Source of the DNA: Pseudomonas flexibilis
GTDB lineage: Bacteria; Pseudomonadota; Gammaproteobacteria; Pseudomonadales; Pseudomonadaceae
DNA: 64,000 nt
Assembly (NCBI RefSeq): GCF_000802425.1
Contig: NZ_JRUD01000007.1
Span: forward strand, 124,001 to 188,000
Direction: 5' to 3'
Numbering within the stretch: position 1 is the stretch's first letter; each line of letters begins with the position of its first letter. Below are positions 22,109-28,544 of the stretch, in pieces. Position numbers and translations under genes: made by a program. Below the pieces are notes generated by a model, which worked only from the letters and a program-made list of their open reading frames with translations, was not told the DNA's origin and did not search any database.

Positions 22109-22137
22109 TTGTCACTGCGCTGTAACGCAACCGTCAT
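22109..22137 (+). promoter_or_regulatory. Tandem PhoB box (three half-sites)
   Basis: Three 7-mers repeat every 11 bases: TTGTCAC (22109-22115), CTGTAAC (22120-22126), CCGTCAT (22131-22137). The PhoB consensus is two CTGTCAT-like 7-mers separated by four bases, and all three keep the GT core. The array ends 46 bases before the ATG of the PstS-like/OmpA gene, which fits phosphate-starvation control. Confidence 0.65.
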
Positions 22138-22183
22138 CTGGCGACTCTAGCCTTGCGCGGCATCATCCTGCCGGAGTCGCCGC

Positions 22184-23512
22184 ATGTCGCTGTTGCGTGC
22201 CTTGCTTGCCGTTTCGCTGATTTCCGGTTGCGCGCTGAGCGTCGCCAGTCCGCAGCCCGCCACCCTGCTGAGTATCCAGGGCTCCAATACCGTTGGCGCT
22301 GCCCTGGCGCCGGCCCTCATCGAGGGGCTGTTCCGCCAGCAGGGTTTCAGCGTCATCACCCGCCGGCCGGGGCGACAGGAGAACGAACAGACGATACAGG
22401 CGCGCAAGCCCGACGGAAGCTGGGTCGGCATCGCGGTCGCCGCCCATGGCTCCAGCACCGGCTTTCGGGCGTTACGCGAAGGCAGTGCCCAGCTGGCAGC
22501 GTCGTCTCGACCGGTGAAGGACAGCGAGGTGGATGCGCTCGCCGGTCGCGGCGACCTGCGCTCGGCAGCCGCCGAGCAGGTCATCGCGATCGATGGCCTG
22601 GCCATCATCGTGCACCCTACCAATCCGCTACGTACCCTGGATGTGGATCAACTGGCAGCGCTGTTCTCCGGGGAGCTGCGTTCCTGGCGGCAGCTGGGCG
22701 GCGCGGATGCGCCGGTGCGCCTGTATGCCCGCGATGACCAGTCCGGCACCTACGACACCTTCAAGGAACTGGTGCTAGTGCCCCAGGGCAGACAACTGGA
22801 CGCGGCCGCGCAGCGCTTCGAATCGAATGATCGGCTGGCCGAGGCCGTGCTGGCCGATCCCCAGGGGATCGGCTTCGTCGGCCTGGCCTCCGTGGGCAGA
22901 ACCCGCGCCCTGGCCATTTCCGCCGGCGGCGCCCAGGCACTGCTGCCCAGCCCGGACAGCATCGCCACGGAGGATTACCCGCTGGCCCGTCGCCTGTTCC
23001 TGTACCGAGCACCGGACGACAACAACCCCTGGGCGCAGGCACTGATCGATTTCGCCCAGAGTGCCGAGGGCCAGCGCATCGTCGAGCAGGTGGGCTTCAT
23101 CGGTCAGGCCGTGCGCGCCATCCCGGTCGAGGCGCACGCCGACCTGCCCGGCGACTATCGCCAACTGGCGCAAGCCGGCCGACGCCTGTCGGTCAATTTC
23201 CGTTTCCAGGAAGGCAGCGCCCAGCTGGACAACAAGGCGGTGCGTGACCTGCTGCGCGTGCGCGACTATCTGGACGCCCACACCGGTGACGATGCACAAC
23301 TGGTCCTGGTGGGGTTCGGCGATGCCAAGAGCGACCCGAGCCGCGCCCGCCTGCTCTCGCGCCTGCGGGCCGAGACGGTGCGCCGCGCGCTGTCGCGCCT
23401 CGGCGTGACTCATACCCAGGTCCTGGGCATCGGCGACGACCTGCCGGTGGCCGACAACCAGGCCGAATCCGGGCGCATCCGCAACCGGCGGGTGGAGGTG
23501 TGGGTTCGCTGA
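22184..23512 (+). CDS. PstS-like phosphate-binding domain fused to OmpA peptidoglycan-binding domain
   Basis: Predicted 442-residue exported protein. A signal peptide (1-22) leads into a periplasmic binding domain of the PstS type (about 25-300): SIQGSNTVGAALAPALIEGLF, STGFRALREGSAQLAASSRP and DDQSGTYDTFKELVL correspond to phosphate-contacting loops in that family. A C-terminal OmpA domain (about 325-442) has the NFRFQEGSAQLD entry strand, RLRAETVRRALSRLG and the closing NRRVEVWV, which bind peptidoglycan. The ATG follows GGAGTCGCC. Tandem PhoB-like boxes sit just upstream. Reading: a cell-wall-tethered phosphate sensor or scavenger. No pst transporter genes are adjacent. Phosphate as ligand is inferred from fold and promoter. 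Confidence 0.85.
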   Translation: MSLLRALLAVSLISGCALSVASPQPATLLSIQGSNTVGAALAPALIEGLFRQQGFSVITRRPGRQENEQTIQARKPDGSWVGIAVAAHGSSTGFRALREGSAQLAASSRPVKDSEVDALAGRGDLRSAAAEQVIAIDGLAIIVHPTNPLRTLDVDQLAALFSGELRSWRQLGGADAPVRLYARDDQSGTYDTFKELVLVPQGRQLDAAAQRFESNDRLAEAVLADPQGIGFVGLASVGRTRALAISAGGAQALLPSPDSIATEDYPLARRLFLYRAPDDNNPWAQALIDFAQSAEGQRIVEQVGFIGQAVRAIPVEAHADLPGDYRQLAQAGRRLSVNFRFQEGSAQLDNKAVRDLLRVRDYLDAHTGDDAQLVLVGFGDAKSDPSRARLLSRLRAETVRRALSRLGVTHTQVLGIGDDLPVADNQAESGRIRNRRVEVWVR

Positions 23513-23648: not shown

Positions 23649-24635
23649 ATGCATCCGTTCGACTTTCTCACCACCCCCTTCCTGGGCACCCCCGCCTGGT
23701 TCTGGCTGGGCTTCCTGGCCATTGTCATCCTGCTCTTGGTCCTCGACCTCGGCGTCCTGCACCGCGAAGAGCGCGAAATCGAAATGCGCGAGAGCCTGCT
23801 GCTCTACAGCGGCTATTTCAGCGTGGGCGTGCTGTTCGGCGTGTGGGTGTGGTTCGAGCTCGGCGCGCAGAGCGCCATGGAGTTCTACACCGGCTTTCTG
23901 GTGGAACAGTCGCTGTCCATGGACAACGTGTTCGTGATGGCGATGATCTTCGGTGCCTTCAGCATCCCGCGTCGCTATCAGCACCGGGTGCTGTTCTGGG
24001 GCATCATCGGCGTGGTGGTGCTGCGCGCCATCATGATCGGCCTGGGTACCGCGCTGGTGAAGGAGTTCGAGTGGGTGCTCTACCTGTTCGGCGCCTTCCT
24101 GCTGCTGTCCGGGGTGAAGATGCTCTTCCAGAAGGAAGAGGAGGAGCACCCGGACCTGGAAAACAACCGCATGATCCGCTTCGTGCGCCGCCACATCCGC
24201 ATGACCGACACCCTGCACGAAGGCCGCTTCTTCGTGCGCCTGAAGCCGGCGGGCGCCGAGCGTGCCCTGCTCTACGCCACGCCGCTGTTCCTCTGCCTGG
24301 TGCTGATCGAGCTGGCCGACCTGGTATTCGCGGTGGATAGCGTACCGGCGGTATTCGCCATCACCCAGGACCCGTTCATCGTCTACACCTCGAACATCTT
24401 CGCCATCCTCGGTCTGCGTTCGCTGTATTTCGCCCTGGCGGCGCTGATGCACCGCTTCGTGTACCTCAAGTACGCCCTGGCGCTGGTGCTGATCTTTATC
24501 GGCGGCAAGATCTTCGCCCACGGTTTCATCGGCAAGGTACCCGCCGTGCTGTCCCTGAGCGTGACCCTCGGCCTGCTGGCCGGTGGCGTGCTCCTCTCGT
24601 TGTTCAAGACCCGCGACAAGCCGGCACAGCAGTAA
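23649..24635 (+). CDS. TerC/Alx family integral membrane protein
   Basis: Predicted 328-residue inner-membrane protein with about nine helices. Family motifs with conserved acidic residues in the membrane are present: LVLDLGVLHREEREI (about 31-45), EQSLSMDNVFVMAMIF (about 85-100) and ADLVFAVDSVPAVFAITQDPFIVYTSNIFAILGLRSLYF (about 225-262). These acid clusters are linked in the family to metal handling, mainly Mn2+ export or tellurite resistance. Length is that of the Alx branch. A very strong 16-bp bidirectional terminator follows. Metal and physiological role not shown here. Confidence 0.9.
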   Translation: MHPFDFLTTPFLGTPAWFWLGFLAIVILLLVLDLGVLHREEREIEMRESLLLYSGYFSVGVLFGVWVWFELGAQSAMEFYTGFLVEQSLSMDNVFVMAMIFGAFSIPRRYQHRVLFWGIIGVVVLRAIMIGLGTALVKEFEWVLYLFGAFLLLSGVKMLFQKEEEEHPDLENNRMIRFVRRHIRMTDTLHEGRFFVRLKPAGAERALLYATPLFLCLVLIELADLVFAVDSVPAVFAITQDPFIVYTSNIFAILGLRSLYFALAALMHRFVYLKYALALVLIFIGGKIFAHGFIGKVPAVLSLSVTLGLLAGGVLLSLFKTRDKPAQQ

Positions 24636-25674: not shown

Positions 25675-27678
25675 TCAGCCTGGCAACCGGCTGCTCAGCC
25701 AGTCGTGCAGTACCGGCGCGGCCACCGGCTTGTGCAACAGTGTGAGTCCGAGCTGCCGCGCAGTGCGTTCATCGTCCGGATCGCTGAAGCCGCTATGCAG
25801 GGCGATTGGCAGGTCCGCACGCACCGCCAGCACCTGCTTGGCCAGCGCCAGGCCGCACAGGCGCGGCATGCTCTGGTCGAGAATCAGCGCATCCCAGGCT
25901 CCGGGCTCTGCCAGCAACGCCGTGCGTGCCTGTTCGGCGTCGCTCCAGACGGTGACCTGCAGTCCCCAGTGGCTCAGGCAGTCCTGCAGGTACTCGCCTA
26001 CCAGCGGATCGTCATCCACCACGCAGACCCGCCCCCGGAGCTGCTCACGCGGCGTTTCATGGTCGCCGGCCGGCCGGGCCGACACAGCCGGTGAGCCCGG
26101 TAGGCCGGGCAGCAGCACCTCGAAGCGGGCGCCCTTCCCCGGCTGGCTGTGCAGCAGGAGGTGACCGCCGTACTCGTGCACCAGGCCGTGCACCATGGAC
26201 AGCCCCATGCCACTGCCCTGCCCCGGCGCCTTGGTGGTGTAGAAGGGTTCGAAGATGGTGTGCTGAACGGACTCGTCGATACCGGGCCCGCTGTCTTCCA
26301 CACACAGCGCCTGGAAGTCGCCGGCGATGCGTTGCTGGCAGGATGCGCACAGGCCGTCCACCAGGCTGCGCGCGTGCAGCGCGATGCGCAGGCGTCCGCT
26401 GCCGTTCATGGCGTCGCGGGCGTTGATGCACAGGTTCATCAGCACCTGCTCCAGCTGCAGCGGGTCGACCCGTACTGGCGCGAGACCCTGGCCGAGCTGC
26501 AGATCCAGCTCGATGCCGGCCGGCAAGGCGGATTGCAGCAGCGGGCGAAACTCCTCGACCAGCGCGGCCAGCGACACCACGCGGGGCTGACCCCGACTGC
26601 CGCGACTGAAGACCAGCATCTGGCGGATCAGGTCGCGGGCCTTCTCGGCCGATTGGCGGATGCGCCCGAGGTAGCGGCCGAGCGGCGCGTCGCCGCGCTC
26701 GCCCGCCAGCTCCTCGGCCATCTGCGTGTAGCCGAGCATGCTGGTCAGCAGGTTGTTGAAGTCGTGGGCAATGCCGCCGGTCAGGTGGCCGATGGCTTCC
26801 ATGCGCTGCGCCTGGCGCAACTGCTGCTCGAGCGTCGCCCGCTCCACCTCGGCCGCGACCCGCACCGAGAAGATGCGCAGCACAGACTCCACGCGCTCGC
26901 GTTCCGGCAGCTCGCTCGCATGGCCAACGGCAATCAGCCCCAGCGGACGGCCATCGCTGGCAAACAACGGGTAGCCGGCATAGCTGTCTATACGGATGTG
27001 CTTCAGCAGCGCATCCAGCGAGTAGCGTTCGCCCAGGCCCCGCGGGATGTACAGGAAGCGCTGGCCGAACACCTCGGCGCACGGAGTGCCCTGCAGCACG
27101 TAGTCGAAGTTGTCGATGGCCTCGCCCCGGTAATTGGCCGCCAGGGTGGACAGGTGGGTGCTGTCCGGCCGGCTGGCGTGGCTGACGAAGGCGAAATCCA
27201 CCTGCAGGGAGGACGCCAGATAGCGCACGGTGGCGGGAAACACCGCGTTGCCGGTGGCCCGCGAAACGCCCAGCGCGACATGCCGCAGGGCGTCCTCGGT
27301 GCGCTTGCGCTCGCTGATGTCGGCGGCGATGCCGCCCACCCCGACCACCTGGCCGTGGCTGTCGCAGATCGGAAACTTGGTGGTCAGGTAGGTGTACTGG
27401 CGCCCCTGCCAGAGCACCTGCTCCTCGACCTCGATGGAGCGCCCCTGCTCGACCACGCGGCGGTCGTTGCACAGCAGGGCATCGGCGATCTCGCCCGGGA
27501 ACAGCTGGTGGTCGTCGCTGCCCAGCACCCGCTCGGCAGGTACGCCGAACAGACGCTCGAACGCCGGATTGACCAGCCGGTAGCGGCCTTCGATGTCCTT
27601 GATGAAGATCACCGCGCTGCTGTTGTCGACGATCTGCCGCAGCGGATTGCCCGCTTCAGGCCAGGTGCGCTTGCCCAT
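25675..27678 (-). CDS. Hybrid sensor histidine kinase (PAS-GAF-HisKA-HATPase-REC)
   Basis: Predicted 667-residue soluble sensor kinase without membrane segments. Domains in order: PAS (about 12-125, NSSAVIFIKDIEGRYRLVN, closing ISERKRTEDAL), GAF (about 130-285), HisKA with His305 in GGIAHDFNNLLTSML, HATPase with N-box NLCINARDAM (Asn419), G1 EDSGPGID and G2 GSGMGLSMVHGLV, and a C-terminal receiver with acidic pocket VVDDD and phospho-acceptor Asp601. A Cys pair (CASC, about 444-447) sits in the ATPase insert, common in this NtrB-like class. Strong GGGGAGGG before the ATG. It follows an OmpR-type regulator by 97 bases on the same strand, a likely partner. Signal unknown; a cytoplasmic or redox cue is plausible. 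Confidence 0.9.
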   Translation of the reverse strand: MGKRTWPEAGNPLRQIVDNSSAVIFIKDIEGRYRLVNPAFERLFGVPAERVLGSDDHQLFPGEIADALLCNDRRVVEQGRSIEVEEQVLWQGRQYTYLTTKFPICDSHGQVVGVGGIAADISERKRTEDALRHVALGVSRATGNAVFPATVRYLASSLQVDFAFVSHASRPDSTHLSTLAANYRGEAIDNFDYVLQGTPCAEVFGQRFLYIPRGLGERYSLDALLKHIRIDSYAGYPLFASDGRPLGLIAVGHASELPERERVESVLRIFSVRVAAEVERATLEQQLRQAQRMEAIGHLTGGIAHDFNNLLTSMLGYTQMAEELAGERGDAPLGRYLGRIRQSAEKARDLIRQMLVFSRGSRGQPRVVSLAALVEEFRPLLQSALPAGIELDLQLGQGLAPVRVDPLQLEQVLMNLCINARDAMNGSGRLRIALHARSLVDGLCASCQQRIAGDFQALCVEDSGPGIDESVQHTIFEPFYTTKAPGQGSGMGLSMVHGLVHEYGGHLLLHSQPGKGARFEVLLPGLPGSPAVSARPAGDHETPREQLRGRVCVVDDDPLVGEYLQDCLSHWGLQVTVWSDAEQARTALLAEPGAWDALILDQSMPRLCGLALAKQVLAVRADLPIALHSGFSDPDDERTARQLGLTLLHKPVAAPVLHDWLSSRLPG

Positions 27679-27775
27679 GACGCCCTCCCCGCGTGCGGTG
27701 TCAGTTCAGCGCCAGTATAGGAAGCCGGCCCGCCGCACCGGCCGGCCGGAAACCAGACTGAAACAATTGAAACCT

Positions 27776-28495
27776 TCAGCGCCGTCCGGTCACCAGCATG
27801 TAGCCGACCCCGCGCAGGGTGCGGATGATCTGCGGCTTTTCCGGGTCGTCCTCGAGCTTGCGGCGCAGCCGGGCGATACGGATGTCGATGGAACGGTCGA
27901 ACGGGCTCCAGTCGCGGTTCTGGGTCAGGTTGAGCAATTGATCACGGCTCAGTGGCCGGTTCGGGCGCTGGGCGAAGGCCTGCAGCAGGTCGAACTCCAT
28001 GGCGGTCAGCTCGATGTCGGCGCCCTGCTCGTCGAGCAGCCGGCGACTGTCCAGTTCCAGGCGGAAACGCCCGAGCGGGATGCCGGATGGCTGCGGCTCG
28101 GCAGCTTGCGGCGCGGTCGGAACGGCGCGATAGCGACGCAGCACACTGCGCACCCGGGCGAGCAGTTCGCGCAGCTCGAAGGGTTTGGCCAGGTAGTCGT
28201 CGGCACCGACCTCCAGGCCGACGATGCGGTCCAGGGGCGTGCCGGCGCCCGAGATCATGATCACCGGCAGGTCGTGCCGTTCGCGCAGGAAGCGCGCCAG
28301 ACTCAGGCCGTCCTCGCCGGGCAGGCCCACATCCAGCAGCACCAGATCGGGCAGCTGCGCGGCCAGCGACTGGCGCAGGGCCGTGCTGTCGGCGCAGCCT
28401 TCCACCTGATACCCCTGGCCGCCCAGGTAGTCGCCCAGCAGACGGCGCACCTCGGCGTCGTCATCCACCACCAGCAGTCGCGCCTGTTCCGCCAT
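27776..28495 (-). CDS. OmpR-family DNA-binding response regulator
   Basis: Predicted 239-residue response regulator. The receiver domain (1-120) has the acidic pocket DDD at 11-13, Asp55 in LVLLDVGLPG as phospho-acceptor, and lysine in YLAKPFELRELLARV. A winged-helix domain (about 140-239) contains LTAMEFDLLQAFAQRPNRPLSRDQLL and ends with RGVGYML, both hallmarks of OmpR/PhoB regulators. I chose the ATG at 28495 (MAEQARLLVV) after GAGGGCAGGGG. Lies between an acyl-CoA dehydrogenase gene (50 bases upstream) and the hybrid kinase (97 bases downstream) on the same strand, so the three may be co-transcribed. Target genes unknown. Confidence 0.92.
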   Translation of the reverse strand: MAEQARLLVVDDDAEVRRLLGDYLGGQGYQVEGCADSTALRQSLAAQLPDLVLLDVGLPGEDGLSLARFLRERHDLPVIMISGAGTPLDRIVGLEVGADDYLAKPFELRELLARVRSVLRRYRAVPTAPQAAEPQPSGIPLGRFRLELDSRRLLDEQGADIELTAMEFDLLQAFAQRPNRPLSRDQLLNLTQNRDWSPFDRSIDIRIARLRRKLEDDPEKPQIIRTLRGVGYMLVTGRR

Positions 28496-28544
28496 GCCCC
28501 TGCCCTCGCTGCCCATTCTCAGCTTAGACAGGGGTGCTTGCGCC

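Follow-up and report, generated by a model that had tools for sequence, protein, structure and literature searches.

A predicted PhoB-controlled Psp3 gene in Pseudomonas flexibilis joins a PstS-type domain to an OmpA-like domain

Relationship to described proteins

What is already known of this type of protein is its domain architecture and one case of a response to phosphate. Psp3 (phosphate scavenging protein 3) was described as a phosphate-binding protein that carries an OmpA domain, and each Pseudomonas screened encodes it (Lidbury 2016, PMC5082522). It was secreted upon phosphate stress in only one of the three strains, P. stutzeri DSM4166 (PMC5082522). The main text of that paper contains no Pho box and does not discuss wall-binding residues. 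A second example is PP_3818 of P. putida KT2440, an annotated phosphate-binding protein that also has an OmpA domain; the authors who deleted it likened it to Psp3 (PMC9358898). The deletion was made in a strain already without its Pit and Pst transporters and one phosphonate transporter, and the final OD on phosphite was somewhat lower; the authors found no clear role and regarded scavenging as unproven (PMC9358898). Because the gene was removed only in a strain without Pst and Pit, the modest effect says little. In our literature search, PP_3818 is named in no further paper, and term searches of the main texts of two P. aeruginosa papers, one on PhoB ChIP-seq and one on phosphate-limitation proteomics, returned no mention of this protein type.

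The gene considered here occupies 22184..23512 on the plus strand of the window, by which we mean the whole 64,000-nucleotide stretch of Pseudomonas flexibilis DNA analysed. From an ATG start it encodes a 442-residue protein made up, according to profile and fold matches, of a signal peptide, a PstS-type domain and an OmpA-like domain. Its domain make-up and distribution identify it as the probable Psp3 gene of this species. The P. stutzeri DSM4166 protein (PSTAA_2217) has the same pairing of PF12849 with an OmpA domain and would be its orthologue in another species, the likeness being one of domains and distribution. The comparison with PP_3818 is one of annotation and description. Like Psp3, the target family is generally present in Pseudomonas. 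Of 71 genomes from the same family, 56 have a full-length homologue, as do 9 of 44 from the order's other families; at the level of the class, only 7 of 274 sampled genomes have one, and two of those belong to the same family. Among the relatives listed, the closest named one is from Serpens gallinarum, at 62% identity. What is new here is the conserved promoter geometry and the residue-level analysis.

The Pho box and its promoter

A Pho box stands in front of the gene at 22109..22137 (plus strand), recognised from the sequence itself, from its consensus score, from other sites in the same genome and from the homologues. It consists of the half-sites TTGTCAC (22109-22115), CTGTAAC (22120-22126) and CCGTCAT (22131-22137), separated by the spacers tgcg and then gcaa, for an exact 11-bp period. 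With three copies of CTGTCAT, the textbook E. coli half-site, as a reference that was not fitted to these data, this position ranks first of 127,944 on the two strands of the window, with 16 of 21 matches to the runner-up's 15. The three PhoB-like 7-mers on an 11-base period described in the earlier note are thus confirmed. A weight matrix built from homologue promoters, with the target's own genus left out, also places its two top hits in the window at the target site; their absolute scores, 1.8 and 0.8 bits, are low, which reflects the AT-rich composition of a model drawn from other genera. Exactly 10 bp past the last half-site is a probable −10 hexamer, TAGCCT (22148..22153, plus strand), at a spacing that the homologues keep. 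A probable ribosome-binding site, CGGAG (22172..22176, plus strand), is located 7 bases 5' of the ATG at 22184, which itself lies 46 bases past the end of the box.

The spacing between box and −10 is conserved among the homologues. In 122 of 148 homologue promoters, two half-sites are followed exactly 10 bp on by TANNNT; at each of 14 other spacings, TANNNT is found in 0 or 1 of the 148, and shuffled promoters give a mean of 0 at the 10-bp spacing. The 148 homologues span many genera; they are related, so the 148 promoters do not count as 148 independent events. In 56 of the 69 loci fetched first, the three-unit score exceeds that of shuffled sequence with a p of at most 0.05.

The same arrangement recurs in the Pho regulon of the 3.76-Mb genome. 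PhoB itself is encoded (C15:14653-15321; 356 bits, cut-off 296), and the pst genes, including pstS and pstC, are on that same contig, C15, which is separate from the one carrying the target gene. The roughly 7 kb to each side of the target gene contain no pst genes, so the earlier note was right that none is nearby. A composite motif of two half-sites, 10 bp and TANNNT has five matches in the genome and none in the control. These fall before the target gene, pstS, pstC and two genes for small predicted lipoproteins, and the pstS and pstC boxes have the same 10-bp spacing to the −10 as that of the target. A degenerate three-unit pattern allowing up to two mismatches has seven matches, to 0 for the reversed control. 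That pattern was partly shaped on the target site, so a perfect score at that site carries no weight of its own. One of its matches is 48 bp upstream of phoB; others precede pstC, a GT4 glycosyltransferase gene, and an olsB-like gene with an acyltransferase gene behind it. The olsB-like assignment reflects the top match, which scores under the curated cut-off.

The genome-wide search also brought out genes apart from the one under study. The two small predicted lipoproteins, of 216 and 236 aa, each have a full Pho box, 10 bp and a −10 (L177:1501-1532, at G000:C3:68769, and L179:1501-1532, at G000:C7:259009), and they are candidates for new envelope proteins of the Pho regulon. At L080:1501-1529 (G000:C16:75857, minus strand), a weaker Pho-like box, 10 bp after which comes TATAGT, stands in front of an enoyl-CoA-hydratase-like gene.

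The minus strand of the window at 25675-28516 encodes a PAS/GAF hybrid histidine kinase adjoining an OmpR-type response regulator (27776-28516). Regulators of the OmpR family commonly bind direct repeats of a similar kind, and this one is encoded 4 kb from the target gene; it, or another member of its family, might be the protein that binds the repeats. This two-component system is found near the homologue in just 1 of 80 named loci, although the box is conserved. These 80 loci, mostly from Pseudomonas, are the listed part of 569 relatives confirmed in named genomes. Moreover, the same motif occurs before pstS, pstC and phoB in this genome. Control by the neighbouring regulator is rejected, and binding by any OmpR-family protein other than PhoB is extremely improbable. 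Two findings give strong support to reading the repeats as a PhoB box: the motif also stands before pst genes of this genome, and its spacing to the −10 is fixed across relatives. As a prediction, PhoB control of the target gene is close to certain, and from the conserved box we predict that Psp3 increases under phosphate depletion.

The signal region and the two binding domains

The signal peptide region (22184..22252, plus strand) can be read in two ways: LISGC is a possible lipobox with Cys16, and SVA-SP is an alternative site for signal peptidase I. Cys16 is not conserved. A lipobox-like motif is present in 3 of 148 homologues, the target included, and an AxA-like site in 146. Lipoprotein anchoring is therefore rejected as a family trait, while the LISGC motif makes a lipoprotein-type signal peptide possible in this particular species.

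Residues of about 26-311 (22259..23116, plus strand) form a type 2 PstS phosphate-binding domain, as judged by fold match and conserved pocket motifs. PF12849 (PBP_like_2) matches residues 83-295 at 110 bits (cut-off 27). An AlphaFold2 model of the protein, made with 46 sequences, has a mean pLDDT of 90.1, and its best fold matches are PstS proteins and other phosphate receptors, including V. cholerae 1twy (Z 25.0, 2.1 Å over 242 residues). The pocket motifs are G33-S34-N35-T36, S90/T92, S108-R109, R183 and S187-G188-T189. Across the 148 homologues, G33, S34, T36, G89, R109, D137, S187 and G188 are invariant, and N35, S90 (T in 12), S108, R183 and T189 almost so. A gap-free alignment places R183 opposite residue 125 of C. 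perfringens 4Q8R, which is a phosphate-contacting arginine (PMC12421899). The genome's own PstS shares with the target domain the motifs GS, GSST, SRP(M/V)KDSE and R..xSGT. At the position of E. coli Asp56, the target has Ser-Arg, as do other members of its PstS subfamily.

The target thus shares its fold and phosphate-pocket motifs with PstS of the Pst2 type (TIGR02136; 1twy and 4Q8R), from which it differs in its C-terminal OmpA domain, in having no pstCAB alongside, and in an extra hairpin. Its TIGR02136 score of 156.1 bits is under the cut-off of 206.6, whereas the true PstS of the genome scores 318.1. Relative to that PstS, the target domain is longer by about 25 residues in the stretch linking the first helix to the GSST loop. 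They are predicted to form a β-hairpin at about 56-78 (window 22349-22417) with near-invariant N67 and E68, and no such hairpin is present in the genome's own PstS. In the model, this insert lies in the N-lobe and could possibly serve as a contact surface or as a bar to docking on PstCA.

An identity of only 22-30% to PstS proteins of known structure, together with an insert near the N-lobe, leaves some room for a ligand such as phosphite, a phosphate ester, another oxyanion or a wall component. The top fold matches are nevertheless phosphate receptors, the Arg, Ser, Gly and Thr contacts are retained, and the gene appears to be under PhoB. A ligand of that kind is accordingly unlikely, and phosphate, as the fold and the conserved contact residues suggest, is the likely one.

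A few homologues depart from this pattern. Arg183 is lost in 3 of 148, and in two loci, L058 and L060 (G019:C5, G002:C14), the fusion gene is followed immediately by a second copy in tandem. At the Arg183 position, the L058-type copy has MANESGS; these paralogues may therefore bind another ligand or none.

The OmpA-like domain covers residues 340-435 (23201..23488, plus strand), identified by profile, fold and conservation (PF00691, 46 bits, cut-off 27.2). In the AlphaFold2 model, the C-terminal fold matches A. baumannii Pal 4g4v with a Z of 12.7. D380 is kept in 144 of 148 homologues and R395 in all 148. Their spacing of 15 is that of D271 and R286 in A. baumannii OmpA, residues shown to bind diaminopimelate (PMC6572160). 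Fold and Asp/Arg pair are thus shared with Pal and the C-terminal domain of OmpA; the target differs from these in lacking a Pal-type or β-barrel context, in being joined to a substrate-binding domain, and in scoring far under the Pal equivalog cut-off. Peptidoglycan binding through D380 and R395 is likely. With PF12849 and PF00691 both above their cut-offs, the earlier note's description of a phosphate-type binding domain and a peptidoglycan-binding domain in one product holds; its readings of phosphate binding and wall binding stand as predicted functions, supported by fold and conserved contact residues.

The presence of a wall-binding domain raises the question of whether the protein is mainly a tether that stabilises the envelope while the outer membrane is remodelled in starvation, with the binding domain secondary. 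The OmpA domain keeps its diaminopimelate residues, a lipobox here, if LISGC is one, would give the protein a Pal-like character, and membrane-lipid genes (the olsB-like gene, the acyltransferase and the GT4 glycosyltransferase) have the same box. On the other hand, the phosphate pocket is conserved at least as strictly as the OmpA residues, and the lipobox is no trait of the family. We consider such a tether quite unlikely.

Gene neighbourhood and proposed function

Upstream of the homologues, xth is found on the same strand in 77 of the 80 named loci, within 400 bp in 67 of them, and a tamBA-GNAT block in 65-74. Downstream, a terC cis-regulatory RNA (RF03067; 23559-23615, plus strand; 59.3 bits, cut-off 39.9) is followed by a TerC/Alx-family metal homeostasis gene (23649-24635). 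Since the terC RNA sits between them, the target and TerC/Alx genes are probably separate transcription units. Co-transcription is also made unlikely by Alx being next in only 28 of 80 loci.

The best explanation of the locus, and one we consider fairly probable, has the protein act as a phosphate trap, induced by PhoB and tethered to the wall, which supplies a distantly encoded PstSCAB. Under phosphate starvation, phosphorylated PhoB would bind the 11-bp direct repeats, which would stand in for a −35 element, and recruit RNA polymerase to the −10 placed 10 bp downstream. The product would be exported to the periplasm, where the OmpA domain would grip the meso-diaminopimelate of peptidoglycan via D380 and R395 and the PstS-type domain would bind inorganic phosphate. 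Immobilised at the wall, such a trap or buffer could raise the local phosphate concentration for the separately encoded PstS-PstCAB importer. The box, the promoter geometry, the Pho regulon of the same genome, the folds and the conserved residues support this by sequence and comparison; from them we infer PhoB binding in this species, phosphate as ligand, wall binding and the hand-off to Pst. The least certain step of the mechanism is the scavenging or buffering role. Counting against a trap, Psp3 responded in a single strain of the three (PMC5082522), and its secretion into the culture medium sits badly with tight wall anchoring. The Ser-Arg at the E. coli Asp56 position also counts on this side.

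The earlier note had proposed scavenging or sensing at the cell wall. A sensor or signalling adaptor would likewise be PhoB-induced and wall-linked, with a partner reading the closure of the binding domain on its ligand. The predicted fixed wall position and the lack of transporter genes alongside are compatible with that, and the family-specific insert, with its N67 and E68, could be the contact surface. However, phosphate sensing in Pseudomonas is already accounted for by PstSCAB-PhoU-PhoR. Nor is there a conserved partner, the hybrid kinase and OmpR-type regulator being nearby in a single one of the 80 named loci. Sensing is therefore very unlikely. The scavenging half of the proposal fits the sole published data, the secretion of Psp3 by P. 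stutzeri, and the trap remains our preferred reading.

Tentatively, a binding protein uncoupled from a transporter and fixed to the wall might constitute a PhoB-induced, phosphate-capturing layer between the outer membrane and Pst. If true, nutrient uptake would have a "periplasmic capacitor" mode that has been retained across the Pseudomonadaceae. The PhoB promoter geometry found across many genera, with the conserved pocket and wall residues, would make Psp3 a core gene of the Pho regulon. Psp3 is widespread in Pseudomonas, and its role matters for the question of phosphate storage or channelling at the bacterial wall.
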